A stretch of 64,000 nt of DNA. It comes from Glycine soja. Lineage: Eukaryota; Streptophyta; Magnoliopsida; Fabales; Fabaceae. The notes under the pieces were generated by a model. That model worked only from the letters and a program-made list of their open reading frames with translations, did not search any database and was not told the origin of the DNA. Positions 1,263-45,700 of the stretch are shown here, piece after piece; the first letter of the stretch is position 1, and each line of letters starts with the position of its first letter. The position numbers and the translations under genes are program-made. The stretch spans positions 19,162,259 to 19,226,258 of the forward strand of contig NC_041019.1 in the NCBI RefSeq assembly GCF_004193775.1. The letters are read 5' to 3'.

Positions 1263-1265
1263 ATG

Positions 1266-1450
1266 CACTACTACAAAACCTGTTTACTACAACGCACCAA
1301 TAACATCGGTTGGTAGAAACTCGTCTTTGAAGAGAATGGAATGGCAGTAACGTAATTAAGGTGTAAGTTTAAGGACGGTTATTAAAAAGACCGTCATAGT
1401 TAAACTCTCTACAAAGACGGGTTTACCCCACCATCTTTGAATGGTTATAT
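1266..1450. repeat. CACTA left terminal inverted repeat and subterminal region
   Basis: After the 13-bp terminal repeat, short GACGG-type motifs recur in both orientations: AAGGACGGTT near 1371, GACCGTCAT near 1390 and AAGACGGG near 1417. In CACTA elements such subterminal repeats bind transposase; here that role is inferred. Confidence 0.7.
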
Positions 1451-1564
1451 TTTTCTCGTTTTTTTTCTCTCTCTTATCGACAGACCCTTTATTTCTTTGT
1501 CTTATCCTCACTTTTTTCTCTCTTTCGCTTTTCTCACTTTCTCTCTCTCTGGTAGGACAGCATG

Positions 1565-2099
1565 GGTCCCCCTCCATGTGGCTCACGCCGTCCACTAGCA
1601 CCGCCCGCGCCTTCAGTGAAGCGACGCAGTGCTCATCGTTTCCGTAGAAGCAGAGGCGAAGGACGACGCGGCGCACAGAGAGGTCAGAGGCGACACCGTC
1701 GAAGAAGAGGAAGTGGGATTTTGTGGATTCTGGCAATCAAGGAGCCTGCTGGCGGCTTGGTGTTTGAAGTGGTCGGAGTGATGAAGGAGGTGCTCCTCGG
1801 AGTCGAGGCGGTGGGTTTCGGGAGTGAGGCGGACAGGGGGGAGGCAACAGCTCGAAGACGGAGGGGTACTTGCGGGTGAATTCGATGGGGCGAAAGGGGA
1901 GGGAGAGGGAGCGTCTGATGAGGGAGACAGGGAGGGACTTAGAGGTTTCACGCTTGATGAGGTTTTTGAGGGAGATTAAGGGTTTGAGGTTTCTCTCGCG
2001 CTCTATTGCGTGGTCGAGGCCACGGTCGCGGATTGGTTTGACGGTGCCGTCAAAGATGGTTCAGAGGGTGAGGATGCGCGATGCTCTGGGTTGAGGCAT
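1565..2099 (-). pseudogene. Captured PORR-domain (plant organelle RNA recognition) gene fragment
   Basis: PORR proteins bind organellar RNA and promote group II intron splicing in chloroplasts or mitochondria. On the minus strand from an ATG at 2099, the frame gives the domain start FDGTVKPIRDRGLDHAIER, then KPLISLKNLIK and RRSLSLPFRPIEF. A second frame continues with VRLTPETHRLDSEEHLLHH and a KHQAASRLL-like run. These match the family pattern in order. It is broken: an in-frame TGA lies at 2063-2061, and a frameshift falls in a C-rich run near 1840. Only the N-terminal half of the roughly 400-residue family length is present. It is far GC-richer than its surroundings. From about 1735 to 1565 an open frame continues that I cannot assign. 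It lies inside the CACTA element, head to head with the next fragment. Confidence 0.82.
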
Positions 2100-2236
2100 T
2101 GTCGTTGGGGGTGGCAATGGAGGGAGAATCAAAGAGGGGTTTGGGGGGTTTTGGAATTGGGTATGTGCTATAATTCTCCAAACACATGATTCATCTTCAA
2201 TATGAAATCTTTTTGATTTATGTTGAACTTTTGTAG

Positions 2237-3400
2237 ACCTGGGTATTGACAAATCCATATTCATCAAGCCTAGAACATTTCACCTTATAGTACTGATGCT
2301 TAAGCTATGGAACAAAGATCAAATTAAGACAGCCTCTGAGGTCTTGCAGGTAAGTTTTATTAAATTCAACCTGATAATTTATTTTGAGAATTAGAATTTT
2401 GTATTTAGGTTTGTAGCAGTTGTGTAGAGTATCTCCTCAAAAGTTATGGAAGCCTTGGATGATCAACCTCTCTCTATAAGATTAAAAGGACTGGTATGTA
2501 TCTACTTTGAGCTCCATTTTTCTAATACATTATTCATATGAATTCCTACTTGCTGCTTATCTGTTTACAAGATATACAATGACATCCCTACTAGTACATT
2601 CACTAAATCTATGGAATGAAGTAACTGAACAATATAAAGATTTCATGTAACCTTAGCCTTCATTGAAAAATTTCTCGTAGCACTTTATGTCTACTAGAAA
2701 CTTTTACCATTAAAATTGACCTCTGTAATTTGTTTAACATCTTTAATGAGGGAAACATATGCTTAATCTTGTAGGAATGCATGAAAGATTCATTGGCAAA
2801 AGCTCGTGTTCTGTACTCCAAGAGACTGGCAGTGAGTATCGTCTTTTACGTGTCTTTCGTGTGTGTGTGTGTGTGTGTATTTGGTACCTGATTTTTATCA
2901 TATATTGCCCTCAAAGAATTGTTTGAGTTTTCTAAGCTTTTTTAGAAGTCATCATTGATGCATATGTTGAAGTTGGACTTGTATTAGAGAATGATGCTAA
3001 ACAGAAATTGAAGGTAAATTAAATTTGTCAGATTCATTTATTGCTTTTGGATAAGTAATACTGCCTCTAGTCATCATTGATGCATCTTGATTTTTCTCTT
3101 GTTTTACAGCTACACACCATTGTGATGAACACAAGGCATAGGAAAAGTTGCTACTCCATCCCCTCTGATTTTTGCAGCTGAATAATCTCCCTTGCTTTGT
3201 AAAACTTGAGATAATTTTTTAGTTTAAATTGTTGATACCGGTGTTCAAGAACAAGAACAAGTGGACAAGAAAGGTTTATTCTTTTGATGCACAGGGCATA
3301 TTCAAGCATTATTGATCAGAGGACTGGGGGCAGTATCTTATTCCTGAAGCTCATCTTTTGCTGAGATTTTCAATTCCTTTTCCTAAAAATATCCAGGTAG
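2237..3400 (+). pseudogene. Captured ASCC1-like (LigT/AKAP7-NLS type) gene fragment with introns
   Basis: Exon-like blocks with splice borders occur in order: 2237-2349 (GIDKSIFIKPRTFHL, then LMLKLWNKD), 2428-2493 (SSKVMEALDDQPLSIRLKG), 2775-2831 (ECMKDSLAKARVLY), 2949-3013 (VIIDAYVEVGLVLEND), 3110-3148 (LHTIVMNTRHRK) and about 3240-3395 (SEDWGQYLIPEAHL). This is the C-terminal 2H phosphoesterase-like part of plant activating signal cointegrator 1 complex subunit 1 homologues. The N-terminal KH domain is absent, and one exon between VLY and VIIDAY is missing or degenerate. A stop (TAT-TGA context) lies before SEDWG. Introns retained with GT and AG borders show capture at DNA level, not through mRNA. 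Confidence 0.83.
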
Positions 3401-3796
3401 AATGACTGGTGTCTTGTTGATTGTTGCCTCACTTTCTTTTATATGGAATAAGGATTTTGATGGTAGCCTCACCATATATATTAAACTTATATACCAGCAA
3501 AAGAAAATGTCTGGGATTATGAGATCAATTTTTAGTTAGTGTTTTCCTCAACAATTGATATTGCCTCTTGTAGACTTCAACTTCCTAATTGGTAGTTTAT
3601 CGTTGATTGTTTAAGGAATAATGATGTGTGTTACAAGAGCATTGAAAAAATTGATAGGGTGAGACATATTCACAAGGAACAACAAGATGGCAACACAAAT
3701 GGGTTTCTTTTCTTTTTTTTTTTCTTCTTCTTCTTATTATTATTAATAAAAACTAATTAACAATACTGGCTCTTTGTTGGGTACATGATCATCATT

Positions 3797-4405
3797 GCTA
3801 TGGTATCAAGCCATTGATGGGCTTAACGTGTACAACATACTAGAGCCATGCTACCATTTCCCCGATGCTACCACAGCCAAAGAAAATGGAACCTTACCAA
3901 AGAGTTGCAAACAATTAGGTGTTCCTGAGAGGCCTCTCCTAGTGGGAAACAGAATGTTTGGTAGAGCTTGGCCTTTTAGAGCACCAATCAAACTTGGTCT
4001 TGTTACATTATGGCCCCAATTTGGCTCAAACGAGGCATGTGGCATGTGTGGTAAGTTATCAATTGTGTCTCTATATTAGAGAGTCTTGACTCAATCATAG
4101 CTAGTGCACCATTTTATTTTTAATCCATAGCTAATTTAGATGTGAAGATAAGAAATTTTTTTAAGTGAAATGATAAAATTAATTTTGTTTTTGATTTGAC
4201 AAAGAGCAGAGTGATGAAGTAGCAAGTTCATGACTAAACAACGTTGCAGTCAGTAAAGCCATTCATTCTGGATCGGTAGGTAATCATCATAATTAGTGTT
4301 ATTAATTATGTTTTATTTTAACAGTTAAAGTAATAAATAACTGATGATTTATTTCTATACATAGTATCTTGTAGAGGAAAAAGTGGCGGGTCTGTGGGAT
4401 TTATT
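3797..4405 (+). pseudogene. Captured serine carboxypeptidase-like (SCPL20-type) gene fragment
   Basis: The first block (3797-4050) encodes YQAIDGLNVYNILEPCYH, then a variable loop and MFGRAWPFRAPIK and GLVTLWPQ, ending at a GT donor. A second block (about 4206-4275) gives SDEVASS, a TGA stop at 4231-4233 in place of the family Trp, then LNNVAVSKAIH and another GT donor. A third short block near 4375-4400 reads EEKVAGLWD. This matches the middle of plant SCPL20-class serine carboxypeptidases, secreted or vacuolar peptidase-family proteins. The segment with the catalytic Ser is absent, as is the C-terminal Asp/His part. It cannot make an enzyme. It sits in the same orientation as the ASCC1-like fragment, about 400 bp downstream. 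Confidence 0.85.
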
Positions 4406-4650
4406 TCTATACTTGGCATTTTTTTGTTTCAGTTTCTATACTTAAAAATTCTGTTTTATTATGTTTATGCCAGTACCGCTTAGTTTTCCAACAATCTAAA
4501 ACTGATATGAAATAGAAGTATAACGACTGAAACATAAAACAAAATTGTATAAAAAATAAAACATATAGCTTTCATTCATATATAAGAAGTAAGGGAAGCA
4601 TTCTAATATTTCTGCATAGGTGCATTGATACAAGTGTAAGAATAAACTAC

Positions 4651-4800
4651 CTGGATGAATTTGCCGATCAATTTCTAACAGGAATTCCCATATGCATGAT
4701 TTTGTCATATGATCCCAAGGCATGATTTTTAGAAGAAAAAACACTTGCCAAATCTAAATTTTGCAGTGCTCTCATGGAATTTAGGATTGCAATGCATTCA
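4651..4800 (-). pseudogene. Possible fourth captured exon, identity unknown
   Basis: A minus-strand frame from about 4800 to 4651 is open apart from one TGA and reads ILNSMRALQNLDLASVFSS, then NHALGSYDKIMHMGIPVRN. It ends at a GT donor-like site (HPG-type context, CAG then GTAGTT). The composition and codon regularity look like a real exon, but I do not recognise the family. It could also be chance. Confidence 0.35.
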
Positions 4801-4805
4801 AAGTT

Positions 4806-5563
4806 ATGATTTACATGACATAAGCCGTACATAAATACCTGCATAAGAAATACAAATCCTTGGAAATTTGGCCAATATGGTAATATTATATGTTATTACT
4901 GCTCTTCAAGTATGCAACACTTACGTTATAAAGAGTCCTACACTTACAGCCATAAAGAGTCTCTTTTGGTGCTCTATATTAATTTGTCAACAAGTTATGC
5001 ATCTAGACACAAACTCTACCATTTCCTTTGGACACTGCCATGAATGAAACTAGCTTCAGATCTCACCAAATTTTGTTTTTTCATGTTGCTTCTTTTTTAT
5101 TTTTTAAGAGGTACACAATTTATTAGATGTACATTTTATTTACTTTTTCAATTAATATATAATATAATGGAAAATTGATATATTAATTTAGGGGAAATTA
5201 TGAAGGAATAATTTCTAGAAATTTGTTTTAAAAAATTAAATCAATAAATGGCTACTGTGTTAATTTAGGGGTCCAAGAGAGTTTTTTATTTTTTGTCTTA
5301 TGTTTTCTCTATTGTTGATGTGTTAGTTTTGGTTTTTAATTTTGGTTGTTGATGGATTTTCATGGTAAAAGAAAGGAGAGAGGTTGGGAATGTAGTGTTT
5401 GTGTTGTGTGTGAACTGTGTTCATTTTGGTGTTGCTGGACATGAGACTTGTGAGAAGAGGATAGGTTCCTATATAAGAGAAATTTTCTAAAGGGTGGGTA
5501 GTGTTATTACCTAGTTTTTTCATGTGTTTGTGATTGCTGCAAAAAATTGTGGAAAAAGGAAGA
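4806..5563. other. CACTA interior, unassigned
   Basis: AT-rich sequence between the captured pieces and the inserted LTR element. No coherent reading frame or motif was found. It may hold untranslated or intronic parts of captured genes. Confidence 0.4.
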
Positions 5564-6862
5564 TGTTAACTCGTTGGCAAGTGTATCAAATTTGTCACAA
5601 GTAGTAAAGTATTTGGAAGTCCGAGTGTCGAATTCACAGGAACTTTGTTTGTACTTAGATTAATGCAAACACAAATTAAAAGAAATAGATAAAGAATTTA
5701 AAATAAAGATGAGAAAATATAGTAGATAAGATAAAGATTTAAAGATGAAAATAAAAGATTTAAATTAAAAGATGACAAAGATAGAAGATAAAGAAAATAT
5801 GAAAATAAAAGTAAAAGATAAGAAAAATAAAAGATTAAGATAAAGATAAGATAAAAAATAAAAGATAAAAATAGAAGATAAAAGAAATAAAATCAAGAAC
5901 GTGATAATGTTGGGACCTGGCCTGCCTTGTTTACCTAGGATGTATAAGTTTATGATTTTTCTTTATCAATTTAAGTGATTCAATTCTATCCACATCTATT
6001 CATTTACTTGCCCCTGATTCCTCACGATGACAAGTCTATTTTATTTATCTATCTTCCAAATTCCTTTGCAAAGACTCAACAAATAAAATGCATGAAATAT
6101 GAATTCTAGATGTTTGCAAGAATGCATGGACATAAAATTATCATTCTATTCCTAGCAATGATTTTCTAATAAAATCGTTTCTTTTTGTTCTATTAGAAGT
6201 TACACTCTTCCGAGCGTCTAACCCCTAAAACCAATGCAAGCATACCTTATTTAAATCTTATTTAGAAGTTATCCTCTCCCGAGCGTCTCATCCCTAACAG
6301 AATATAAAGATGAATAAATGCAAGATAAAAGCAGAAAATATAATAGAATAGAAAACACCTTTGCATTGATAAATAGTGAGTACATCATACATATGGCTTT
6401 TAGGCCTGTCAGGCCCTAACTAGGAGTTTAGCCACTCATGGCCATTAAAGGCTTTACAATGGATGGGGTATAAGAACTGATGGGATAAGAGGGGTGAAAG
6501 AAAGAAAGGGAGTAAATGAAACTCCTACTAGAGGGGGGGGGTTACATGGTCTTTTTTTCTGTTTGGCTTGACTCTCTTTTTATAGTTATTGCAGTAGACT
6601 TGAGTCTGATGCTAGAAATCTTCCTTTTTGATATTTTTGATATATTTTGGATTTGTTTTTCTTTTAATCATATCTTCCTGATATTTAGGGTATTTTCACG
6701 ATCTTTTTCTCTTTTAATCTCTCTTTTTCATATCTGAAAGTCATAAATAAAAAAAATATCAAATCTTAATATTTAAGCCAAAGATAACTGCTAAATAAAT
6801 ATTTTTAAGGATATTTTCAATATATTTTTATCATCAAAATAACTCATATTTAGCAGTTATCA
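5564..6862 (-). repeat. 3' LTR of the gag-only element (1299 bp)
   Basis: In plus view it starts TGTTAACTCG and ends GCAGTTATCA, so on the element strand it is TG to CA with matching terminal TGATAAC and GTTAACA. It is closely similar along its length to the repeat at 10360. The hydrophobic frame at 6516-6737 recurs in the other LTR and is not a gene. Confidence 0.9.
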
Positions 6863-6878
6863 AAATCCCCCAAATTAA
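6863..6878 (-). other. Polypurine tract of the gag-only element
   Basis: On the minus strand AATTTGGGGGATTT lies directly before the TG of the 3' LTR, the position of the plus-strand priming site for reverse transcription. Confidence 0.75.
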
Positions 6879-8320
6879 AACTTTGCTTGTCCTTAAGCAA
6901 AAACAAAAACGAGAGCAGGCTCCGAATGCTCCAACACTTTCAATAGCTACAATTTTTTCAAATTCTTTCAACTGGTCCTTTTTGCTTTTGCCATAATCTC
7001 ACAATGGAAGCACAAACAACATCGATATGAAAATAGTTAGTATCGGAAATTAATCAAGTTGGCTTGCCTCACTTTTCTCACAAGGTTAGTGTTTCTCTCT
7101 GCGCACAAGTGTCTGGGGTGAGTGTTTGAAATTTTACGACCTGCAATTAATATTCCCAAATTTGCACTTCATCTCAGTTAAAGCTATTCTTACTTACACT
7201 TGGTGGATCACTAAGGACTTTTATTGGCTTGTAACGGGACCTGGCTAAACAAAAAATCATGACTTTTCTGGGATTTCAAAAACTTAGGATTATAAGAGAG
7301 CATGCATCCTTAGAAAAACTTTCACTTATTTCCTGCCTAGGCTTATTTATTTTTCAGCCTTTATTCCTCTAGCAGCACTTTTCTTCTTGGCACTTATGAC
7401 ACCTCTATTTTTCTGCCCTTATTTCAAAATTAATTTTTTTTTTACCTTAGCACTTATGGCACCTTTTTTTTTCTGCCCTTATTTGCAATCTTTTTTCTTT
7501 CTTTCTTTCTTTTTTTTTGGATAAGAATACTTTGGGCTTACAAGCTTCTGAGGGTGCCCTATTGTGTGCTGCTTTTTTTTATATAGGCAAATTCCCTTAG
7601 CAATCCCCCAAATTAAGGACTTATCATAACTTGAAACCCTTATGCTCTCTTAGAACCCTAAAACAAGGTCAAGGATATCAAAATTAGGCTCAGGGGTTTA
7701 TTCAAACAAATCATTATTAATTTTGGCTCAACAGGGGTGCAAGGGATAAATTCATCACACGTTGGCTTTTTGACTGAGTGGCTAAGATAAAAAGAAACAT
7801 GGCCTTGATCATATCCACCTTATGCAAATAATTTAACAGTCTAAGAATGATGCAAAATTAGGAATTTAAAAATAGACGTTCTCTCATAATTAAGTTCACA
7901 CAACTCACCGGGACAAGATAAAGTTATCGGCTTACCGGACCATGATCTTTTTCCATCAAGCTAACCTTTTCTCTCTTTGTGATTCATGTTCCACTGTTTG
8001 ACTAACTCTTGCTTCCAGGAAACCAGTATTTTCACAATTGTCATGCAGCATTTCAAGTGTTGAATCCTTCAGAAAAAGCCTAAATAGTGACTTCACAAAT
8101 ATCATGCAATTTTTATTCAATGACTAAATTTAAACTATTGGAATTAAATTGCTGAAATTAAAATGCACAAAATCAAAATAAAGAAAGGAAATAACACAAC
8201 TATCCTAAAAAGAACAAAACACATAATGCAATTAACTAAAAGAAAGATAGAGTAAGACATCCTGGGTTGCCTCCCAGTAAGCGCTTCTTTAATGTCATTA
8301 GCTTGACGGGTCCAATGGCT
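6879..8320 (-). other. Non-coding 3' internal region of the gag-only element
   Basis: About 1.4 kb without a usable frame between the gag-like frames and the polypurine tract. It contains T-rich runs near 7430-7580. In complete Athila elements pol would precede this position; here it is missing. Confidence 0.6.
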
Positions 8321-10044
8321 TCAAGGTGGCATGAAGGTCACATAAAACACATCCTCCTTGCATTTTCGTCTCTTAGCTAGAGACACCATGAAACTCGTGT
8401 ATTCTGTAAGCACCTTCCACATTATTGCAAGAGAAGTGGTAGCGATCAAGGAAAGAATGACACTTAAGGTTTTCTCATGTTCTCCATGTCTTTCTTCCTT
8501 GACAATCAGTTGATGAGGAGGGTATTGACTTGGAGAATACTTTCTTGTTGAATTTTTACTTGTGAGTGCTTCTCCCATTATTGTGCTTTCTCCTCATTTT
8601 TTTCTTCCTCTTCCTTCTTTTCTCTTTCTTCTTCTTTCTTCTCTTCTTCTTTCTTTTCATCTCTGTTTGTCCTTCCTTCCTCAGACTGGTCTTCTTCTAC
8701 TTCACCCTCTTCTTGTGCTCTCTTCTGGCTTTTGGACAGAACTACCTTGCACTCTTCCTTTGGGTTCTTCTCTGTGTTGGCCTCGAAAGTTCTAGTGGGC
8801 ATTTCAGCTTTTTCTTGAGCTAATTGGCTTATTTGAACTTCCAAATTCCAAATTGTTGCATCAGTGCTCTTTTGATGTGACCTTGTTTCCTGCATAAACT
8901 GTATTAGCATTTCTTCTATGTTAGTGGGCTTCTCTTGATGACTTGGCCCCTGGCTAGGATGCTGATAGGGCAGCTGACTCTTATTCTCTTTGTTGTACTG
9001 ATTCTAAGGATGACTCCTCCAGCTTGAGCCTTGTGTAAAAGTTCTCCCTTGGTTGAATCTTGGTGGGCCGTGATTGAATCCTAATGGTCCTCCCTAGTGG
9101 TACACTTGGAATCCGTGGCGATTTGGTATGCCCATGTAGTTTACTTCCCTGGAAGGATCTTGTTGCATTACGCATTGCCCAGGCTCGTGTGTTCCTCCAC
9201 ATATGTGGCATCCCCCTACCTGCATAACAGAAGAATGAAAAGGACTTACTGCTTGTAATTGTTGTGGAAGCTTGTTGAGGGTCTCTGTTAGGGCTTCTAT
9301 TTGTCAGGACAACAGCTTGTTCTGAGCTAAGGTTGCATCTTGAGTAGTGAGTTCTAGAAGGCTTCTCTTTGTTGGTGCATATGTGCGATCACAAAGAATG
9401 GCGTGATCACTAGCCGCCATGTTTTCTATGAGTTCCATTGCCTCCTCCGGTGTCTTTAGCCTGATCTTCCCTCCTACGGATGCATCCAGTAATTATTTTG
9501 ATTGTGGTCGCAAGCCATCTATGAAGATGTTCAGTTGCACCGGTTCACTGTACCCATGTGTAGGCGTCTTCCTGAGTAGTCTGTGCAAACGGTCGAGCAT
9601 CTCGCTGAGGGATTCATCAGGAAATTGATGGAATGAAGAGATTTTCATCTTCCCTTCAATGGTCTTTGACTCTGGGAAGTATTTCTTCAAGAATTTCTCC
9701 ACCACCTCGTCCCATGTCCGCAGACTATTCCCCTTAAACGAGCGAAGCCATATTTTTGCTTTATCGGCCAAGGAAAAAGAGAATAGATTGAGGCGGATGA
9801 CGTCTTTTGGCACTTCGACTATCTTCACCGTGTTGCAAATGTCGATGTATGTGGCCAGGTGTGCGTATGGATCTTCACTTGGTAGGCCGTGAAATAGATT
9901 CCCTTGAATCAGCTGAATCAAGGAATATGGATATGAGAAGTTGGCCGCCTGCACCTCTGGTCTGGCTATGCTGGTGAAGTATTAAGGTATAATAGGACTA
10001 GAGTAATCCTCTAGCGTCATCCTCTGTGGACGATCTTCTGCCAT
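8321..10044 (-). pseudogene. Athila-type gag with zinc knuckle and charged tail, interrupted by stops
   Basis: The minus-strand ATG at 10044 opens MAEDRPQRMTLEDYSSPII, followed by one TAA. Then comes the capsid-like retrotransposon gag domain (9954-9493) with NLFHGLPSEDPYAHLATYI, WLRSFKGNSLRTWDE and a PDESLSEMLDRLHRLLR run. A CHICGGTHEPGQC zinc knuckle follows around 9190, then NLEVQISQLA and a Glu/Lys-rich low-complexity tail at 8700-8578. A further frame (8578-8321) continues after a stop. At least four stops interrupt it, so the element cannot make full gag. Plus-strand frames at 8562-8823 are mirror images of the Glu/Lys tail. Confidence 0.85.
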
Positions 10045-10335
10045 GATGAGTTCTTTAAAGAAGGAATGTGCAATATTCACAAAAGAAACAACTATCATGC
10101 ACGTTATCACAGAATAAAAATTAAATTAAATATTTTTTTTATTTTTAATTTTTAATTTTTATTTTTATAAAAAAGAAAAAAGTAAAATAAGAATGAATAA
10201 AGAGAAAAAATTGAAAAATAAAATGAAGCAACTAAAAAATAATAGATAAAAAAAGAAAGTAAAATAAAAAGTGAAAAGTGAAAACTATTTGCTTTAAAAT
10301 TGGAATATGCAAATAATCAAGTACGAAAAACAAAG

Positions 10336-10353
10336 TCCCCGGCAACGGCGCCA
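10336..10353 (-). other. Primer binding site, tRNA-Asp
   Basis: The plus strand reads TCCCCGGCAACGGCGCCA, identical to the 3' end of plant tRNA-Asp including CCA, so the minus strand is its complement. It lies 6 bp inside the 5' LTR, as a primer site should. It is not a tRNA gene: no other tRNA part is present. Confidence 0.9.
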
Positions 10354-10359
10354 AAAACT

Positions 10360-11618
10360 TGTTAACTCGTTGACAAGTGTATCAAATTTGTCACAAGTAA
10401 TAAAGTACTCGGAAGTCCGAGTGTCGAATCCCCAGGACTTTGTTTGTACTTGGATTAATGCATAACCCCAAGTTAAAAGCAATAGATAAAGAATTTAAAA
10501 TAAAGATAAGAAAATATAGTAGATAAGATAAAGATTTAAAGATGAAAATAAAATATTTAAATTAAAAGATAACAAAGATAAAAGATAAAGAAAATAAGAA
10601 AATAAAAGTAAAAGATAAGAAAAATAAAAGATTAAGATAAAGATAAGAAAAGATAAGATAATAAAAGATATGATAAAAATAGAAGATAAAAATAGAAGAT
10701 AAAAGAAATAAAATCAAGAACGTGATAATGTTGAGACCTGGCCTGCCTTGTTTACCTAGGATGTATGAGTTTATGATTTTTCTTTATCAATTTAGGTGAT
10801 CCTATTCTACCCACATTTGTTCATGTACTTGCCCCTGATTCCTCAGGATGACAAGCCTATTTTATTTATCTATCTTCCAACTTCCTTTGCAAAGACTTAA
10901 CAAATAAAATGCATGAAGTATGAATACTAGATGTTTGCAAGAATGCATGGACATAAAATTATCATTCTATTCCTAGCAATGATTTTCTTATGAAATCCTT
11001 TCTTTTTGTTCTATTAGAAGTTACCATCTTCCGAGCGTCTAACCCCTAAAACCAATGCATGGATACCTTTTTTAAATCTTATTTAGAAGTTATCCTCTCC
11101 CGAGCATCTAACCCCTAACAGAATATAAAGATGAATAATGCAAGATAAAAGCAGAAAAAATAATAGAATAGAAAACACCTTTGCATTGATAAATAGTGAG
11201 TACATCATACATCTATTGGTTTTTAGGTCTGTCAGGCCCTAACTAGGGTTTTAGCCACTCATGGTGGCTTTACAATAGATGGGGTATAAGAACTGATGGG
11301 ATAAGAGAGGTGAAAGAAAGAAAGAGAGTAGATGAAACTCTTACTAGAGGGGTGTTATGTGGTCTTCTTTTCTGCTTGGCTTGACTCCCTTTTTTTTATA
11401 ATTGTTGTAGTGGACTTGGTTCTGATGCTAGAAATCTTCCTTTTTGATATTTTTGATATCTTTTGGATTTGTTTTGTTTTTAATCATATCTTCCTGATAT
11501 TTTGGATATTTTCTCGATCTTTTTTTCTTTTAATCTCTCATTTTCATACCTGCAAGTCATAAATAAGAGAAATATCAAATCCTAATATTTAAGTCAAAGA
11601 TAACTGTTAAATAAATAT
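10360..11618 (-). repeat. 5' LTR of the gag-only element, outer end lost
   Basis: It starts TGTTAACTCG like the other LTR and follows it closely to about 11618, then diverges after AATAAATATTT where the 5564 copy still has about 70 bp to run. The outer end was deleted after insertion, or lost at insertion. Confidence 0.85.
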
Positions 11619-11929
11619 TTATCTGAAGGGTAAGGGAATCTCAGTTTAATTTCAATCTCTTACTTGTGTTGTGTTTGTGTGTTTTTCTGTATTAGATGGA
11701 GGTTCATTTTTTAATTAATGTATGTTGGATACATATTACTCTTGACTACCTTCCAAAAAACTTATGATCATACATTTTTAATTATTAATTAATTTATTGT
11801 CATGATTTTAATTAATATTATGATAATATTAATTAAAATTATGATAATAAAGATTATTTTTAATTATTCATATTTTTTATGATGGGATATTGTTAAAAAA
11901 AATATCAATAATTAAAAATAAGTTGTCTT

Positions 11930-12140
11930 TCTAAGTAAACATCGTCTTAGAAAGTTGTCAGTTTTCTAAGTCAATATCTTCTTATCCGTCGTTGAAAGTT
12001 GTCAATTTTTTAAGACGGTATTTTCTTATCCGTCGTTGAAAATTAACACTTTTTACAATATATGTACTACGACGGTCAACAACCATCGTTAAATATTGTT
12101 TTGGACCATTTTAAAAAAATCTTTTTTTTTTTTAGTAGTG
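11930..12140. repeat. CACTA right subterminal repeats and terminal inverted repeat
   Basis: TCTTATCCGTCGTTGAAA occurs exactly twice (11979-11996 and 12024-12041), with further CATCGTCTTAG, AAGACGG and ACGACGG motifs. The end TTTTTTAGTAGTG is the inverse of the left CACTACTA end. The stretch 11619-11929 before it has no recognised feature. Confidence 0.82.
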
Positions 12141-15416: not shown

Positions 15417-15830
15417 GGCTTAATTAAGTTTTTCATACCTAGAATGTATATCATTTTCATATTACTACCTAACATTCATTTTTTCAACCAAGTAATTGAA
15501 AAAAAATTACAGTTTCATTTTACTATCTGTCGTTAGTCACATTCTGTTAAGTGATGACGCGATAAACGAAGTGTGTCACGTCATCATGTCCAAACACTGA
15601 CGCATCATTGTCATGTCATCACCTTCAACAACATGGCAATGACATATCAGTGATTGGGCGTGATGATATGACACTTCATCTGTCACGTCATTATTTAACA
15701 GAAGAGAATTAACGACAGGTAATAAGTTGAAACATAAAATTTTTTCAGATAGGTATTTGAAAAAAAATGAATTTTTAGGTAGTAATCTAAAAGTGACCTA
15801 TTTTTTAGGTATGAAAAACATATTTAAACC
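15417..15830. mobile_element. Foldback MITE, copy 1
   Basis: The left end GGCTTAATTAAGTTTTTCAT pairs with the right end, whose complement begins GGTTTAAATATGTTTTTCAT. Complementarity continues inward through most of the 414 bp (for example TGATGACGCGATAAAC against GTCACGTCATTATTTAACAG), so the element could fold into a long hairpin. It has no coding capacity. A second copy lies 660 bp downstream. I could not fix a target duplication. Confidence 0.75.
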
Positions 15831-16489
15831 ATATGTAATTGGTGTTTTACGATCTATGATCAAGGTACGCATGTAACATGTTATGTCTACCCTCACTCTT
15901 CTTTCACTATTATCTGGACCTAGAATATATATATCTCACCATTTGATATTGTTGGTTCTCATTTAGCTTTGTCCAAATATTAAATGTACGCATCTTAACT
16001 CTTTAATTTTACCTTTAATATTATCTTATTAATCTAGTTTAGTTGATTAAACATGATAAATTGATAGGTGAGTTATTGTAAATTTTAAATAGTATTTTTT
16101 TATTCCTACCAATAAAAAATCTTATTAATTTAATGCATTTCTTATTTTGAATGAGAAATTATCTTAAAAAAATAAATAGGATAAAGTTTCTTAAGTCTAT
16201 ATAAAAATAAATTACATATATATTCATCAAGTTATTTTAATTAATTTTTAGTTTTTTTTACAAGCTTACAAATATTTGATCAAATAAAATTGTTTGATAA
16301 ACGATTTTTTCTTATTGACTTATAAGATTTACTTTTGAACATAACTTAAATTTATGATTACCATTTTTATTTTTATTTTCAATAAAAAAATAAATTTTTT
16401 CATTTATCATTTTATCTAAAATTAAATTATTTATTTTGATAAAACTCCTTCTTATCATTTGTTAACTAAAAAATTATTTTTCAAATTGA
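15831..16489. other. AT-rich spacer between two related MITEs
   Basis: No gene or structured element was recognised in this stretch. Confidence 0.4.
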
Positions 16490-16893
16490 CTTAATTAAGT
16501 TTTTCATACCTAAAATAGATCGTTTTCAAATTACTACCTAAAAATTCATTTTTTGTCAAATAACTACCTATAAAAAAAATTGTTTCAACTTATTACCTAT
16601 TATTAGTCTTCTTCCTTTAAGTGATAATATGACAGTCGGAATGTTACAACATCACGTCCAATCAATGACAAGTCATTGTTACACCATTGAAAGTGATAAT
16701 GTGTCAATGAGGTGTCTGTGATAAGGCGTGATGACATGACACTTCATTTGTCATGTCATTACTTAAAAGAATGCGACTAATGACGAGTAGTAAAATGAAA
16801 TTGAAATTTTTTTAGGTACTTAGTTGAAAAAAAGTAATATTAAGTAATAATCTAAAAATGACCTATATTTAAAATATGAAAAACTTAATTAAG
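16490..16893. mobile_element. Foldback MITE, copy 2
   Basis: It begins CTTAATTAAGTTTTTCATA and ends with the exact complement of those 19 bases. The interior matches the 15417-15830 copy in order (TTACTACCTA, GTGATAATATGACA, GGCGTGATGACATGACACTT and so on), with many substitutions, so the two are old family members in the same orientation. Confidence 0.8.
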
Positions 16894-24679: not shown

Positions 24680-25898
24680 AAGACTCATCTTTTCGCCCCA
24701 AAATCCTCTCCAACAAAAACACCACCGGTGGCCAACTTAACATCACCTTCTCCTCCTCCTACGGTGCCACGTGGGCGTCCTCCGCCGCAACCTCGTCTCC
24801 GTGATGCTCCACTCGGCTCTATTCAGTTCCTTTTCCGAAACACGCGAGCGTGTCCTGCATAACGTTGAAAACCGACGCAGAAAAAAACAATTCTATTAAG
24901 GTGAAGGATCACGTTCAACATGCCATGTTCACCTTGCTGGTTTTCATGTGTTTCGGTGGAGAAGTTCAGAAGGAGAAAATCGAAGACATAGAACACGTTC
25001 AACGTTGTTTAATGTCGGAGCTTAGCAGATTCGGCGTACTAAACTTGTTGCCCGCAGTGGTCACTCGCGTGTTGTTGCGAAAACGGTGGCAGGAGTTGCT
25101 GGATCTTCTTCAGGCCCAAAAGGACGTGTTTACCCAATTAATAAAAACAATAAAAAATGTTGGTGATGGGGATGGAGGTGTTATTTGTTACGTGGATACT
25201 TTGTTGAAGTTGCAATTACCCGAAGAGAATCGCAAGCTTGACGAAGGTGAAGTTGTGGCGTTGTGTTCGGAGTTTCTCACTGCGGGCACGGATACAACTT
25301 GCATGGCTTTGGAGTGGGTCATGGCGAATATAGTGAAGTACACGCACGTGCAAAAGAGGGTTGTGGAGGAAATTAAAGAAGTGCTGGGTGATAGAAAAGA
25401 TAAGGAAGTGAAAGAGGAAGATCTGAACAAGTTGCCGTATCTAAAAGATGTGATTTTGGAAGGTTTAAGACGTCATGACGTGACGGAGGACGTGATTTTT
25501 GGTGCCACATGCAGTGACGGAGGACGTGGTTTTGAATGATTATTTGGTGCCTAAAAATGTGACTGTGAACTTCATGGTGGCAGAGATGGGGTGGGATCCT
25601 AGGGTTTGGGAGGATCCAATGGAATTCAAGCCAGAGAGGTTTCTTAGTAGTGGTTTTGAGGCCTTTGATATTATTGGGAGTAAAAAGGTTAAGATGATGC
25701 CCTTTGGGGCTGGGAGGAGGGCTTGTCCTCCTTATAACCTCGCAATGTTCCATTTGGAGTACTTTGTAGCTAGCTAACTTGGTTTGGAATTTTGAATGGA
25801 AGGCTTCGAGTGGAGGGAACGCAGATTTGTCACGGAAACAGGAATTTACTATGGTGATGAAACATCCATTACATGCTCAAATTTATCCTAGGTTCTAG
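24680..25898 (+). pseudogene. CYP89A-like cytochrome P450 pseudogene, 5'-truncated, multiple frameshifts
   Basis: CYP89A enzymes are ER-anchored P450 monooxygenases. The membrane anchor and PPGP hinge (about 100 residues) are missing. Recognisable parts in order: SSSYGATW (C-helix region), HVQHAMFTLLVFMCFGG, the I-helix ALCSEFLTAGTDTTC with the oxygen-binding AGTDTT, the K-helix EGLRR (ExxR), the PERF segment, and heme loop [12 protein letters not shown], where Cys is kept but the usual following Gly is Pro. Breaks: a 1-nt loss after GATW near 24773, a compensating shift near 24880, replacement of the PPGHFVL-type segment by a duplicated GTGACGGAGGACGTG (25480-25494, original at 25514-25528), and a 4-bp AGCT duplication at about 25769-25775. 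The last frame still runs to a natural-looking TAG at 25896-25898. No intron is seen, as in CYP89A genes. Confidence 0.92.
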
Positions 25899-33779: not shown

Positions 33780-34404
33780 GTGGGCATGAAATAACTCCCT
33801 TTGCCACTAAGCTATTGTGATTTATTTGTTTATTAGGTGCAATTAATTTATATTTATAACTTATGGAGGATAAATCATTTATGCGCAAACTGTTTACAAT
33901 ATTATGTTAAATACTGGTATGCATTGAATTTGATTCTTTAAAGTTTATTACATGTTGAATGGATATACGTACAATGTTATTTTGAATTGGTATACATGTA
34001 ATTTTTATAATTTAATATTGAGCACGCTTGCATTATTAAGTATGTTATGCAAAGATTATTTTTGAATGTTAAGTGATTAATATAATTTTATTAAATTAGA
34101 GAGTAGCCACAACATCTTTAATTGAGTAAAATTACATGCTAAATTTATAATCACATTAAAAATATTAATTGTGATTAATCATATGTAATGTGATGAAATC
34201 TACCCACAGGAATTTTGTTGTATTTGTATGATTAATTAGGATAAAATATTAGATTATATTTCTTAATTTACCCATAGGAATTAAGGAAAAGAACATGATT
34301 TAATAGTTTTATCGTAAAGTTGCATGATGAATCTAATTGAGTAGGACTTTAGCCCACAGACAAGTTTTGTGTCACTAGATTCATATATTGAGACATGATT
34401 TGCA

Positions 34405-37400
34405 TTGGCAAAACATGACATTTGTTTAGTCTCAAATTTTCTTAATGAGCATGTGTGTTTGTTTGCAATTTCACAATATATGAATATTTCTTGTGACCTT
34501 CCCATATTGAAAGGTGATAATTATAAGGTTTGGAAGGAAATAACTCTCCTTCATTTAGGCTGGATGGATATTGACTATGCTATAAGGAAGGATGAGCCAC
34601 CGGCTATTACTGAGACTAGCGAACCTGATGCTGTTGACCTTTATGAAAAGTGGGAGAGATCTAATTGTCTCTCCATTATGTTCATAAAAACTAACATATC
34701 CGCTAGTATCCGGGGTTCAGTTGACCAGCATGATAAGGTTAGAGATCTGTTGAAAGCCATTGATGAACAGTTTACGACCTTTGAGAAGTCGCTTGCTAAC
34801 ACACTCATTATGCAATTCTCTTCCATTAAGCTTACTGGAACGAGAGGTGTGCGTGAACATATCATGCGCTTAAGGGACATAGTGGCTCAATTTAAAACCC
34901 TGGAAATTACCATGTCTGAATCCTTCCTGGTACATTTCATTTTGTGCACCCTACCTCAACAGTATACACCCTTTAAAATCTCCTACAACACACATAAGAA
35001 TAAATGGTCTATTAATAAACTGATGACCATGTGTGTTCAAGAAGAGGAGAAATTGATAATGGAAGAGGGTGAGAAGGTAAATTTGACTACTTCTACTTTT
35101 GGAAAGGATAGGAAGAAGTCTGTAGACACCAATAAAGGAAGGATTCCGACTCAACCAACAATTAAAAAGGAGTCAAAGTGTTTCTTCTGTAAAAAGAAAG
35201 AACACATAAAGAAGGACTGCCCAAATTTAAAAGTTGGTTTGAGAAGAAAGGTACACCATTTACTTTCGTTGTTATGAATCTAATATGATTAATGTGAATC
35301 ATAATACATGGTGGATTGACTCTGGTTCTACAATCCATGTTTCTAATACCTTGCGGGGTATGGAAAGCCTAAGGAAACCAATGGGAAGTGAGCAGTGCAT
35401 CTACTCAGGGAGTAGGATGAGCTCGCATGTAGAGGCCATTGGAACATGCGTCTTAGTTTTAAGTAGTGGCTTTAAATTACATTTGGAGAAAGTTTTTTAT
35501 GTTCCTAGTTTTTGTAAAAACTTAATTTCTGTTTCTAAACTTGCACCTTTGAGATTTTATTTTAATTTTACAGACTTTGGTTTTAATTTACTAAATAAAT
35601 ATGAAATTATTGGTTGTGGTCAATTGGTTGATGGTCTTTATTCGATTGAATTGAAAAGCGACGCTGCTTATAATTCTATGCACGTTTCTGTTGGGTTAAA
35701 AAAATATATTGTGAATGAAGAATCCTCTATGTTGTGACACTGGAGATTAGGACATATCTCTATTGAGAGAATCAAGCGATTAGTAAATGAAGGAGTACTT
35801 AGTACTTTGGATTTCGCTGATTTTGAGACTTGTGTAGATTGCATTAAGGGTAAACAAACTAACAAGTCTAAAAAGGGTGCAAAGAGGAGTTCTAATTTAT
35901 CAGAAATCATACATACAAACATATGTTGTCCAGACATGGGTGCAAATAGTCCGAAATACTTCATAACCTTTATAGATGATTATTCACGATATATGTATCT
36001 CTATTTACTTCATTCTAATAATGAAGCTTTAGATGCCTTTAAAGTTTTTAAGGCTGAAGTTGAGAAACAATGTGGAAAACAAATTAAGATCGTGAGATCA
36101 GATAGAGGTGGGGAGTACTATGGTAGATACATAGAGGATGGACAAACACTAGGTTCATTTGTGAAATTTCTTCAAGAACATGGGATTGTTGCCCAATACA
36201 CTATGTCTGGTTCTCTGGATCAGAATGGTGTGGAAGAATGAAGAAATCGAACCTTATTAGACATGGTGAGAAACATGAGGAGTAATGTAAAGCTTCCTCA
36301 ATTTTTGTGGATTGATGCACTTAAGATGATTGTATATATATTAAACCGAGTTCCAACCAAGGTTGTCTCAAAGACACCTTTTGAGTTATTCAAGGGTTGG
36401 AAACCAAGTTTGTGACATATACGCGTTTGGGGATGTCCATCTGAAGTAAGAATTTATAATTCACAAGAGAAGAAACTAGACCCTAGGACTATTACTGGGT
36501 ATTTCATTGGATATGCTGAAAGGTCTAAAGGGTATAGGTTTTATTGTCCATCCCACAACACTAGGATTGTGGAATCAAGGAATGCAAAGTTTCTTGAAAA
36601 TGACTTGATCAGTGAGAGTGGTCAATTTCAGAACATTTCTTCTGAAAGGGGTCACTATGAAGCTGAACCTTCTGGGACAAGTAATAGGTTGGTAGTCATT
36701 CCCACCCGTCAAGTTAAAATGGGTGTTAGACAACCAGTGATTGAAGCTTCACAAGCTGTTGAAAGTGATCATGTAGATCAAGTTGTTTGTGAGGAACAAC
36801 ATGATGATATTGAACAAACTGGTGAAGAACCAGTTGAACAAGTTCCTCAGTAGGATGACCAAGCAACATTAAGAAGATCTACTAGAGTAAAAAAGACAGC
36901 AATTCCTAGTGATTATGTAGTGTACCTACAAGAATCAGACTACAACATTGGAGCCGAAAATGATCCTAAGACGTTTTCATAAGCCATGAGTTCTAAGGAA
37001 TCAAATTTGTGGTATAATGCTATGAGGGATGAGATGAATTCTATGGCATCTAACCAAGTTTGGGATCTCGTTGAGTTGCCTGTTGGTGTAAAAGCCATCG
37101 GATGTAGATGGGTCTTCAAAACAAAGAAAGACTCAGAAGGCAACATTGAGAGACATAAGGCAAGACTTGTTGCTAAGGGATTCACTCAAAGAGAAGGAAT
37201 CGATTACAGAGAGACCTTTTCCCCTGTATCTAAGAAAGAATCTCTTCGAGTAATTTTTTCATTAGTAGCTCATTTTGATCTTGAGTTGCATCAAATTGAT
37301 GTGAAAACGGCGTTCCTGAATGATGATCTAGAAGAAGAGGTTTACATGAAACAACCTGAGGGATTCTTATCTAGTGTTAGTGAGCACTTAGTCTGCAAGC

Positions 37401-38534
37401 TTAATAAGTCCATCCATGGATTGAAACAAGCCTCCCGCCAGTGGTATTTAAAATTTCATGAGGTCATTTCTTCATTTAGCTTTGAAGAGAATGTCATGGA
37501 TCATTGTATATACCAGAAGGTCAGTGAGAGTAAGATTTGTTTCCTTGTATTAGACATAGATGATATTCTGCTTGCGACTAATGATAATGGTATACTATAT
37601 GAGGTGAAACAATTTCTCTCAAAGAACTTTGATATGAAGGATATGGGAGAGGCATCTTATGTCATAGGCATAAAGATCTATAGAGAAAGATCTCGAGGCA
37701 TTTTAGGCTTATCTCAAGAAACCTATATCAACAAAGTTTTAGAGAGATTTAACATGAAAGATTGTTCACCAAGTGTAGCTCCCATTGTGAAGGGTGACAA
37801 ACTCGCTTTGAGTCAGTGCCCCAAAAAATGATTTTGAGCGGGAACACATGAAAAATATTCCATATGCTTCAGCAGTTGGAAGCCTTATGTATGCTCAGGT
37901 TTGCACTAGACCTGATATTGCATTCGCTGTTGGAGTCTTGGGAAGATATCAAAGTAATCTAGGTATTGACCACTAGAAAGCTGCAAAGAAAGTGATGAGA
38001 TATCTTTAAGGAACAAAGGATTACATGCTCATGTATAGACAAACTGATTGTCTGGAAGTGATTGGCTACTCCAACTCAGACTTTGCTGGTTGCGTTGATT
38101 CACGAAGATCGACATCTGGTTATATTTTTATGTTAGCCGGTGGAGCTGTATCTTGGAGAAGTGCCAAGCAAACCTTAACTGCTACTTCCACTATGGAGGC
38201 TGAGTTCGTTTTCTGTTTTGAGGCTACCTCGCATGGTGTATGGTTGAAGAGTTTCATGTCTGGCCTTAGAGTTGTGGACTCTATTTCTAGGCCATTAAAG
38301 TTGTATTTTGACAACTTTGCTACAATGTTAATGGCTAAAAACAACAAAAGTGGAAGTCGAAATAAACACATCGACATCAAGTACTTAGCCATAAGAGAAC
38401 GTGTTAAAGAAAGGAAAGTGGTCATTGAACACGTCAACATTGAGTTGATGATTGCCTATCCTTTAACTAAAGGCATGCCACCAAAGAATTTTAAGGATCA
38501 TGTAGTACGAATGAGACTTGGTTCCATGATGTAA
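34405..38534 (+). pseudogene. Copia gag-pol polyprotein with stops and two frameshifts
   Basis: Gag (34405-35277; likely natural start at 34480, MNISCDLPILKGDNYKVWKE) belongs to the UBN2 type and has a knuckle CFFCKKKEHIKKDC. After a frameshift, protease WWIDSGSTIHVSN (35310) and GAG-pre-integrase HWRLGHIS follow. Next are integrase core pieces ITFIDDYSRYMYLY, VRSDRGGEYY and GVEE, the RT (36986-37831) with DVKTAFLNDDLEEEVYMKQ, and RNase H (38025-38534) with TSGYIFMLAGGAVSW, ATSTMEAEF and KHIDIKY. The RT catalytic box reads DIDD instead of YVDD. In-frame stops occur at about 35736, 36239, 36412, 36851, 36980 and 37829, and another frame change precedes RNase H. No functional polyprotein is possible. 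Confidence 0.93.
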
Positions 38535-38761: not shown

Positions 38762-39174
38762 ATATATTATGTTTCTTGTTACGGTTGATGTTGAGTTAAA
38801 TGGACCAAGTGGGAGAATGTTGGAATGACCCACGTTCAGGATCACATCCCACGTTCTATTTTTATTTTATTCCTATTACATTATTTTGGAAAATTTTGTT
38901 ATTTCTGAATCTGGTTCATTTTCCTTCCACATTCAACCCATATCTTTGCAACATATTTGCAACCACTTTCAGTAACAAATATGTTGCAAAGATATGGGTT
39001 GAATATGGAAAGAAAATGGATCAGATTCAGAAATAATTTTTTTTTTTCAAAATAATGTAATGAGAATAAAATAAAAATAGAACGTGGAATGTGACCCTAA
39101 ACGTAGGTCATTCCAACATTCTTCCACTTGGTCCATTTAACTTAACATCAACTGTAACAAGAAACATAATATAT
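38762..39174. repeat. Large near-perfect palindrome, arms about 198 bp, 16-bp spacer
   Basis: The left arm (38762-38959) covers the last 56 bp of the internal region, the polypurine tract and the first 142 bp of the LTR. The right arm (38976-39174) is its reverse complement with few changes: CATTCCAACATTCTTCCACT mirrors AGTGGGAGAATGTTGGAATG, and ATGTTGCAAAGATATGGGTT mirrors the inner end. The spacer is 38960-38975. Confidence 0.9.
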
Positions 39175-42704: not shown

Positions 42705-45700
42705 TATTATTTATACCATTTTTATGGCATTATAAATGACAAGATGAAATGACATAAAGTGCTTAGAGAGTTCACTTGCATGTGGAAATTTTTTTTTTAT
42801 AAAAAAACTCAAGTTAAAAGGATAATGCAACCAAATTAATACTTCCAAATAAAAGAATGTTTTGTAAAGACATCTTCAGACAATTTAAATATTTTTATTT
42901 GGCTATATTAGTATAAATCATCTCTAATCCATATATTTTTTAATACTATACTTTTTTTTTATTTTCTTTTGATGTACTTTTTTTATTTTAACAACTTGAA
43001 TTCAATATGATTTTGTTTATCAATTATTTTTGGATTTGTATATTACTTATACGAAATTTGATAAGTTTCTTCTTTTAGTTAGTATTTCACTAGATCTTAA
43101 AACAATTAATTGGTCAAAGACGTCTTTAAGGAGACTTTTAAATAGGTTCGTAGGTCAAGCCAGACCTTTTATGTAAACCGAGCTGAGTCTTAAAAAAAAA
43201 CTTATGACAGATAATGAGTCAAGCTCAAGCCTTGCATATTCAATTCAAGTCGAACTCAAGCCTACTAAAGTTTGGTTTGACTCATTTCCACCCCTACTAG
43301 TGGGGTGTGATATTTTTTGGTGTTATTAATGTTGTACCCGTTTTTGTTTATGTTATGGAAAGGTCAAAGGTATCGTTTCTATGCGTACCGAGATGGCAAG
43401 TTTGGTAGATAGATAATTAAACCAATTTTGGTGGCAATATTCAATTGTATGTACCACTAGCTATCTATCTATCTATCCCCTTTAGAATTTGATCAGTGGT
43501 CCCTTCCAAGCCGTATCCAATTATGGCAAAATCTATTTGTTCTGGTTTACTTTTTAAATGGTTGTGATTTGTGAAACAAAGTGCTTCTTATGAGTTGGAA
43601 CATTTGTCTCTATTCTAGTCGTGTCATGTGTGACTTCGGTTCAAGCTTGGCTCTACAAGAGACAAGAAACAGCAGAGGACGTAAAAAAGAAAAAGAAATT
43701 AAAACTATGGTATAAGTTGTCAGAATCACTTGACCTGAAAATTAAGCTAGTAGGGAACGCCCTGGAAATGGTTTAACTCTTTACAGCTCCTCCTATGAAA
43801 GCCCTCTAGGCAAGAAAACTCATGTTTATTTGCCTATCTAAAAGGTTTAAGTGGTGTATCATGTTTGCTACTTTGGTTGCATGGGAAAACAAAACAGAAA
43901 ATATACAAGAGAGTAAGAAACAACTTGGTTTTAAAGCCATCTAAACCAGATACTGAGCCTTTCAGTGATTCTAACCCCAATCTGTTGTATAAACAAAAAT
44001 ATTCACAGAATCATTCACTGCTAACCAATTACAAAAAAAAATTATTCTGCAATGGATAAAGAATTTCATCTTATGTTTCTAAAGAGAACCAAACATTTTT
44101 TCAAGCCAATTTCTGTATCAGTTTGTCCTGAATTTGCTGGCTTAGTTTGAGTGGGTAATGTACCTTCAGGAGTGTACTAAACTAACAGTTAACGAGGAAT
44201 TCCAGTGACATTCTCTTTATGATAGGTTGAAATTTATTTAAGATCACCAAATTTGGTGAGTCTCAATTCTAAATCAGGTAAGGGAATCATTAAATAAGAG
44301 GTGAGACCCACCAAAATTGATAATTTTCAATATCATAAAATGAGTGTTAGAAAAAGAGATCGAGAGTGTCCTCATAATTAATACAACAACTACTAGCAGG
44401 TGCGGCATGGCTGTATCACTTATGAATAGAAAACATCACACATAAAATGCATGTAATTGCAAAAAAGGAATTGATCCTTGTGGCATGGATTCATACCGAT
44501 GTATACTCAGGGTCAAAATAGCCAAAGGTGCCAAGTACTCTTGCAGTAACATGTGTCTCCTGTCCTTCTGGCATTAGTTTGGCAAGCCCAAAATCAGATA
44601 TCTACATAAGCATTGTTAATTTTGACTCAGTACTTATATATTGCGGTATATGTAAAAACATGTTATAAGTCATTGCTGGTAGTTTATACATACCTTTGCT
44701 TCAAATTTGGCATCTAGAAGAACATTGGTGGATTTGAAATCTCTATGAACAATAGGAATTCCAAGACAAGAACTTGAATGAAGATAAGCAAGTCCTTTTG
44801 CTGCTCCCAGTGCCACTTTAAGTCTTAAAGGCCAATCCATCTTTCTTTCTCCAATTCCTAAAATTACACATTGATTAATAGAAGATGGATGTAAGAAGAT
44901 TTTCACATAATGTGGATTTTGAGTACATGACTTGCCATTCAGATGATCTTGCAGGTTACCATTATGCATATATTCGTATACTAGGAACCTATTCTTCCCA
45001 TCAGCACAGTATCCTATCAAAGAAACAAGATTTGGGTGGTCAAGTCTGCTTAATAAGTCAACCTCCACTCGGAATTCGCGCTCCCCCTCTGCTGCTTTAA
45101 TTGCAGGCAGCTCCATCTTCTTGATTGCTACAACCTTCAGAAGTAAATGCATTAGTATGTATGTATTTGTGGCTAAATCACAAATATGGAGTCATATAGT
45201 ACTCTGATATGACTCAATCTGTGTGCTATTTTGATTCAGTGATTTTATTGCAAGTAAATATAAGAAGCATCATTTGTTTATGGAAGCTACAACTTTTATG
45301 TTACACAATTTTTTTAAAAATTATATATGATGACTTCTTTTGGGTTATAAATAAGTTATATCCAAAACACATTACCTCTCCTGACTTCAAAGTGCCCCTG
45401 TAGACCCTGCCAAATCCTCCTTTTCCAAGCAGATTATCATCACTGAATGAAAATGTTGCCTGTTCCATCTCCCTGAGTGTGAAAACAGATGATCTATGCC
45501 TCCTTTTTGTAGGTTGTGGTGTTTGATCTTCAAGCTGCCAAAACTCTGCAGGTTTATAAATCCCTGTATAAAGAGGGTGAATGTATAATTTGTTACTAGT
45601 TATGTTACAAGGAGATTTCACTCAGTATAAGTACAAGCTTACAACATGAAAAGCAAGAAAAGGAGGAAGAAAATACAAGGGTCTGAATGATCTTGAGACT

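Follow-up and report, generated by a model that had tools for sequence, protein, structure and literature searches.

CACTA transposons that collect scraps of host genes are an already known kind of element, and Pack-CACTA and Pack-TYPE elements were reportedly treated by Catoni et al. in 2019. How CACTA elements gain these gene pieces is an unsettled question. In soybean, Tgm-Express1, a CACTA element of the wp allele, carries fragments of five unrelated genes (an unknown protein, CDC2, FPK, malate dehydrogenase and cysteine synthase) and gives chimeric transcripts (PMC1947982). A published model of capture has neighbouring insertions joined into one element (PMC8903248, PMC13317346). Here we describe an element in a 64,000-nucleotide stretch of Glycine soja DNA (C18:19162259-19226258, hereafter the window; C-numbers denote contigs), followed up by genome-wide searches over 1,013,641,977 bases in 1119 contigs. 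Judged from its sequence, window 1266-12140 is a worn, non-autonomous Pack-CACTA that holds scraps of at least three ordinary genes: a PORR gene, an ASCC1/AKAP7-like gene and a serine carboxypeptidase (S10) gene.

The window element resembles Tgm-Express1 in being of CACTA type and in holding several unrelated host gene fragments with exons and introns, whereas its nested retrotransposon and the identity of its gene fragments set it apart. With the Pack-CACTA and Pack-TYPE elements of Arabidopsis, rice and maize it shares a non-autonomous nature, terminal repeats with a duplication and coding DNA from multiple loci, and fused elements have been proposed there too (PMC8903248); unlike them, it has one piece with microhomology at both edges and many short patches. 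Members of the soybean Tgmt* family have the subterminal motifs TTGGCAG/AATCTTACAG (PMC2613891). Placement in the Tgmt*/Tgm-Express1 subfamily was rejected, with no exact copy of TTGGCAG or AATCTTACAG in 1266-1465 and 11621-12140. We found no description of the window copy in what we read of the Pack-CACTA, Pack-TYPE/soybean CACTA and Tgm-Express1 literature, though one may exist. Because its sister copies and likely donors can be traced, the order in which it was assembled can be worked out in part, and the choice between copying of filler and fusion of neighbours becomes testable on a family of about 15 loci.

Ends and coding content of the element

The outer features are these:

1263..1265, left target-site duplication ATG, directly outside the left end
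1266..1278, plus strand, left terminal inverted repeat CACTACTACAAAA, unchanged at 9 of the 14 other loci fetched
1266..1710, plus strand, left-end region (family A) with GACGGT/ACCGTC motifs, common in whole or part to 14 other fetched loci
11793..11921, AT-rich hairpins before the right end, z -10.7 against 100 shuffles (DNA folding)
11817..12140, plus strand, right-end region (family B), 74% to C9:5.61 Mb and 72% to C4:42.95 Mb, with partial matches at many loci
12128..12140, minus strand, right terminal inverted repeat CACTACTAAAAAA
12141..12143, right target-site duplication ATG, directly outside the right end

Repeats starting CACTA, a 3-bp duplication, subterminal motifs repeated at both ends and related copies elsewhere are the features that place the element among CACTA transposons. 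The matching ATG on both sides, claimed in an earlier sequence-only reading of this DNA, was confirmed; the right terminus, taken there for the exact inverse of the left, agrees with it at 12 of 13 bases. An 8-bp CACTACTA/TAGTAGTG pair with matching 3-bp flanks, 0.5-20 kb apart, was seen in 1 of 200 sequences drawn from a first-order Markov model. The 13-mer alone, at up to 2 mismatches, was found 3 times against 2.98 expected, that is, not below chance frequency. The motif ACCGTC has 2 copies in each terminal region and 10 in the window, a count reached by 3 of 20000 random window-pair draws (pairs separated by less than 1 kb were passed over, and the choice of motif was post hoc).

A nested long terminal repeat (LTR) retrotransposon takes up 6.1 of the 10.9 kb, leaving about 4.8 kb of CACTA proper. 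No Pfam match to a transposase, the mark of an autonomous member, was found in 1266-5563 or 6862-10359, 11625-12140 lying outside the scan. The sequence-only reading had called the transposon complete; both ends are indeed present, and because no transposase domain was found in the scanned parts the word applies to the ends only.

Captured pieces and their likely donors

Three gene pieces follow the left end:

1706..2187, minus strand, PORR gene fragment whose frame is broken and holds stops; likely donor C2:6491440-6491946
2185..3621, plus strand, ASCC1/AKAP7-like gene fragment with introns kept; likely donor C11:52133816-52135542
3620..4412, plus strand, serine carboxypeptidase (S10) gene fragment, matched by BLAST as far as 4404; likely donor C18:51260907-51261898

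Among the 14 other fetched loci that share the left end, the match starts at the terminus in 10 and is confined to the inner part in 4. Two of these loci are sister copies, at C1:8164286 (about 7.5 kb, left end 79%) and, reversed, at C18:15089987 (about 5.0 kb, left end 83%). Both carry this left end and, behind it, the carboxypeptidase piece, so that cargo and left end are common to the window copy and its sisters; the element may have moved together with its cargo. In the C1 sister the ASCC1 piece extends further left (element positions ~2335, by a C15 match, to 4162), and the C18 sister carries the tail of that piece. The right sides of the sisters read GTAGTAA and GCAGTAA; since the final GTG is missing in both, they may be worn. 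The left-end pattern, searched in viral contigs, gave nothing useful.

Some further observations concern these copies. Two Pfam matches below the cut-off in the C1 sister (L007), to LIM at ~9128-9194 (2.7e-4) and to CDC26 at ~4325-4405 (0.0042), were not relied on; they are possible further captured genes in the family. In the C18 sister (L009, C18:15088012-15088251), short parts of the carboxypeptidase piece are duplicated. A C17 locus (L046, C17:35564066-35564327) holds an ASCC1 fragment at 92% near a stretch like the right side of the C1 element (74%, 80 columns), and is perhaps another sister.

The PORR piece matches PF11955 on the minus strand at 2.1e-13, and at 3.5e-19 when the reading is joined across frames; its C2 match sits in a 553-residue open frame whose PORR domain is almost complete (2e-106). 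In an alignment of 454 columns, 41 sites separate the window from C2, 59 separate it from C16, and 45 separate C2 from C16. Lone differences number 26 for the window, 12 for C2 and 30 for C16, with all three differing at 3 sites; of the 26 seen only in the window, 13 are C>T or G>A and 9 lie at CpG. A genome search with 1561-2200 returned 18 matches, namely the window, the C2 and C16 PORR loci, the 14 left-end loci (within 1561-1710) and a short C5 match to part of the PORR piece. None of the 14 other fetched left-end loci has the PORR piece, and in each of the 13 loci set against the C1 copy family sequence runs past the point where that piece starts. Because likely donors, second donor matches and sisters can be compared, the PORR capture can be placed, with support from these comparisons, in the window copy's own line, where it apparently replaced family sequence, and its edges can be read to the base. 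These edges abut family-A and ASCC1 sequence directly and show microhomology: the left join shares the 5 bp AGAGG and the right join the 3 bp CAT. Among random joins of the sequences concerned (200000 draws each), 0.6% have at least 5 bp and 5.9% at least 3 bp.

The ASCC1-like piece matches AKAP7_NLS (PF10469) at 2.2e-7 in its first exon and at 8.8e-34 with exons joined by eye. Introns included, it aligns to C11 in four blocks of 94, 90, 97 and 87%, whereas against C15 the first block is equal (94%) and the others are lower (78, 81%). AG and GT are in place at several exon edges. An origin from processed RNA was rejected because the introns are retained. Over 378 columns the window stands alone at 11 sites, C15 at 7, the C1 copy at 6 and C11 at 3, and window and C1 copy share 1. 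The copies thus appear, less clearly than for the carboxypeptidase, to lie on the branch of the C11 gene, and a single shared capture is plausible.

The carboxypeptidase piece (3620-~4412) matches C18:51.26 Mb at 91-93% and C9 at 83-84%, and three frames of the C18 locus match Peptidase_S10 (best 5.1e-33), on both sides of the captured stretch. By itself the piece gave nothing in Pfam, NCBIfam or PDB, and nothing useful against plasmids, viral and bacterial contigs. Its two internal deletions lie at 3-bp and 6-bp overlaps, and its join to the ASCC1 piece at a 2-bp overlap. Counted as two-state site patterns over 689 columns, lone sites number 33 for the C9 gene, 28 for the window, 22 for the C18 copy, 18 for the C1 copy and 7 for the C18 gene. 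Because the lone sites of the C9 gene (33) outnumber those of the C18 gene (7), the window, C1 and C18 copies fall on the branch of the C18 gene. Shared sites comprise 3 for the three copies, 2 for the C18 copy and window, 1 for the C18 copy and gene, and 1 for the C1 and C18 copies, a pattern in which a single capture shared by the three copies is likely. We take C9/C18, C2/C16 and C11/C15 to be duplicated chromosome pairs, the data showing just a second match per donor.

The sequence-only reading had placed a PORR piece (minus), an ASCC1/LigT-like piece with introns (plus) and an SCPL20-like piece (plus) within a CACTA-ended stretch, and all three were borne out, the last as a serine carboxypeptidase piece. 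It had further suggested searching the genome for the termini and for the donor of each piece; both searches were run, the left end recurring as described and the right end on C9 and C4, with likely donors on C2, C11 and C18. Capture of at least three host genes therefore stands for all three pieces, while the nested retrotransposon and a set of extra patches had been overlooked:

4419..4592, plus strand, patch matching C8:10196669-10196836, 89%
4634..5029, plus strand, two patches (4634-4929, 4928-5029) matching C3 at 91% and 98%, joined at a 2-bp overlap
5071..5256, plus strand, patch matching C4:32404055 and C5:40080191 at 98% and C8:390503 at 91%
5269..5563, plus strand, patch matching C10:28517286-28517597, 87%, split by the retrotransposon and continuing at 11625
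5564..11624, minus strand, gag-only LTR retrotransposon, 3' LTR 5564-~6861 and 5' LTR 10360-~11620, outer limits partly by eye
9493..9981, minus strand, gag domain PF03732, the gag frame broken by stops
11625..11673, plus strand, C10 patch resumed, identical at 49 of 49 bases, where the fetched C10 stretch stops

A genome search with 4405-5563 gave 18 matches including itself, shorter ones among them, with pieces from at least four other places at 87-98%, the C10 one spanning 5269-5559. The C3 sources of 4634-4929 and 4928-5029 lie about 1.25 kb apart, and a similar pair occurs on C1 (78% and 96%). As no Pfam domain was found in the patches of 4419-5563, we do not call them genes. Should every patch stem from a source of its own, at least seven loci would have contributed to the element.

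The LTRs of the nested element (5564-6804 and 10360-11620) agree at 90% over 1273 columns. Their Kimura two-parameter distance of 0.071 over 1229 sites corresponds to 2.7 million years at a substitution rate of 1.3e-8 and to 6.9 million years at 5.17e-9. The minus strand has a TGGCGCC site after the right LTR and a G-rich tract before the left LTR; we take them to be primer sites, resembling a primer-binding site and a polypurine tract. In a six-frame Pfam scan of the interior, gag was the sole domain above the cut-off and no pol domain was found; with its LTRs, gag and primer-like sites the element may be of Ty3/gypsy type. In having gag with no pol domain the element is like the gag-only soybean retrotransposons of the SNARE type, a likeness of gag/pol content only. 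GAAGA and GAAGG flank the insertion point, and since the C10 match runs unbroken across it, the retrotransposon inserted later. The right (5') LTR is without its first ~54 bases (11621-11624 against 6805-6861), yet the GAAGA/GAAGG flank repeat is kept.

Assembly of the element and competing explanations

We favour, with a probability of about 0.72, a Pack-CACTA with a shared ancestral capture, to which the PORR piece and patchwork and the retrotransposon were added, presumably with filler repair and a hybrid end. The sequences support an ancestor that had the family-A left end, held the ASCC1-like and carboxypeptidase pieces and produced the window copy and the C1 and C18 sisters; a CACTA transposase from elsewhere would have moved it. 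The window copy further carries the PORR piece, which takes the place of family sequence, and the patchwork of 4419-5563, resuming at 11625, into whose last patch the gag-only retrotransposon later landed. Internal breaks, for example from incomplete excision, may have been mended by copying short unlinked stretches (filler DNA) that joined through a few shared bases, and the right end may have come from a second CACTA family by fusion. A present function is most likely absent.

Termini reading TTTTTTTAGTAGTG, as the right end does here, also occur at C9:5.61 Mb and C4:42.95 Mb, where the flanks differ. A search with 11854-12140 gave 92 matches (40 of 81 candidates scored), and among the matches listed none but the window itself lay at a left-end locus; likewise, at E 1e-3 none of the 14 left-end loci fetched gave a match to 11621-12140. 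As the right end matches other loci than the left end does, two CACTA families may be combined in a hybrid element here, which is the weakest part of our best explanation. Several observations weigh against that explanation, and the hybrid step meets most of them. A finer search found the right end of the C1 sister to resemble window 12006-12093 (70% over 89 bp, E 7.5e-5), a likeness that had escaped the coarser search, and found nothing of note in the C18 sister. The family-B loci are themselves just 71-74% alike, just the above fraction of right-end candidates was scored, and right ends were inspected for 2 of the 14 left-end loci, both being the sisters that lack the last GTG. As to the captures, the shared carboxypeptidase capture rests on 3 sites, 2 other sites group the C1 and C18 copies with the gene and leave out the window, and in the ASCC1 piece the C1 copy shares 3 sites with the C11 gene. 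Four patches have no domain and may be repeats; stretches of 6-41 unexplained bases, with no overlap, lie at 4413-4418, 4593-4633, 5030-5070 and 5257-5268, and the ASCC1 piece has internal breaks with no overlap at 2639-2642, 2861-2880 and 3073-3077.

All pieces might instead have been taken by fusion of neighbours, with CACTA elements flanking a gene piece and moving jointly with the DNA between them, repeatedly. This mechanism has been proposed for Pack-CACTA and other Pack-TYPE elements (PMC8903248, PMC13317346) and agrees with a right end that matches loci other than those of the left end. We nevertheless consider it unlikely as the whole account: the 482-bp PORR piece comes from inside a gene region, both its edges show microhomology and the adjoining family sequence is lost, and the short patches of 4419-5563, coming from different places, would require many fusions. 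A possible hybrid end thus fits the neighbour-insertion model, whereas the PORR piece and the patchwork better suit filler repair. We suggest tentatively, at somewhat less than even odds, that an element with ends from two families and an interior drawn from seven or more source loci, joined in part by microhomology, would show capture by filler DNA, beyond the fusion of neighbours.

The different locus sets matched by the two ends would also suit a chance pair of unrelated CACTA ends around ordinary pseudogenes, in which no single element ever moved. This is improbable given the rarity of an end pair with matching 3-bp flanks in the null sequences, the ACCGTC motif common to both end regions (with the post hoc choice noted above) and the sisters, in which this left end is likewise followed by the carboxypeptidase piece. 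Even less credible is delivery of the gene pieces by a nested Helitron or Pack-MULE, both of which do carry gene pieces (PMC1947982), because the PORR edges abut family-A and ASCC1 sequence directly. Neither a Helitron-like 3' end nor 20-nt inverted arms (up to 3 mismatches) occurred in 1266-5563, a weak negative for Helitrons in that 20 shuffles gave just 0-2 Helitron-like sites each.

Other features of the window

Elsewhere in the window, 34399-38534 holds Copia-type retrotransposon frames (Retrotran_gag_2, RVT_2) in several open pieces, and just behind them 38762-39174 forms a large hairpin, 413 bp at 87% to its own reverse complement. Gene pieces occur at 24805-25539 (cytochrome P450, 4e-34) and 44670-45191 (protein kinase, 8.5e-22). 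Long imperfect inverted repeats of 70-76% lie at 15417-16893, and 50741-51193 is a tandem duplication of 225 bp, 96% alike.

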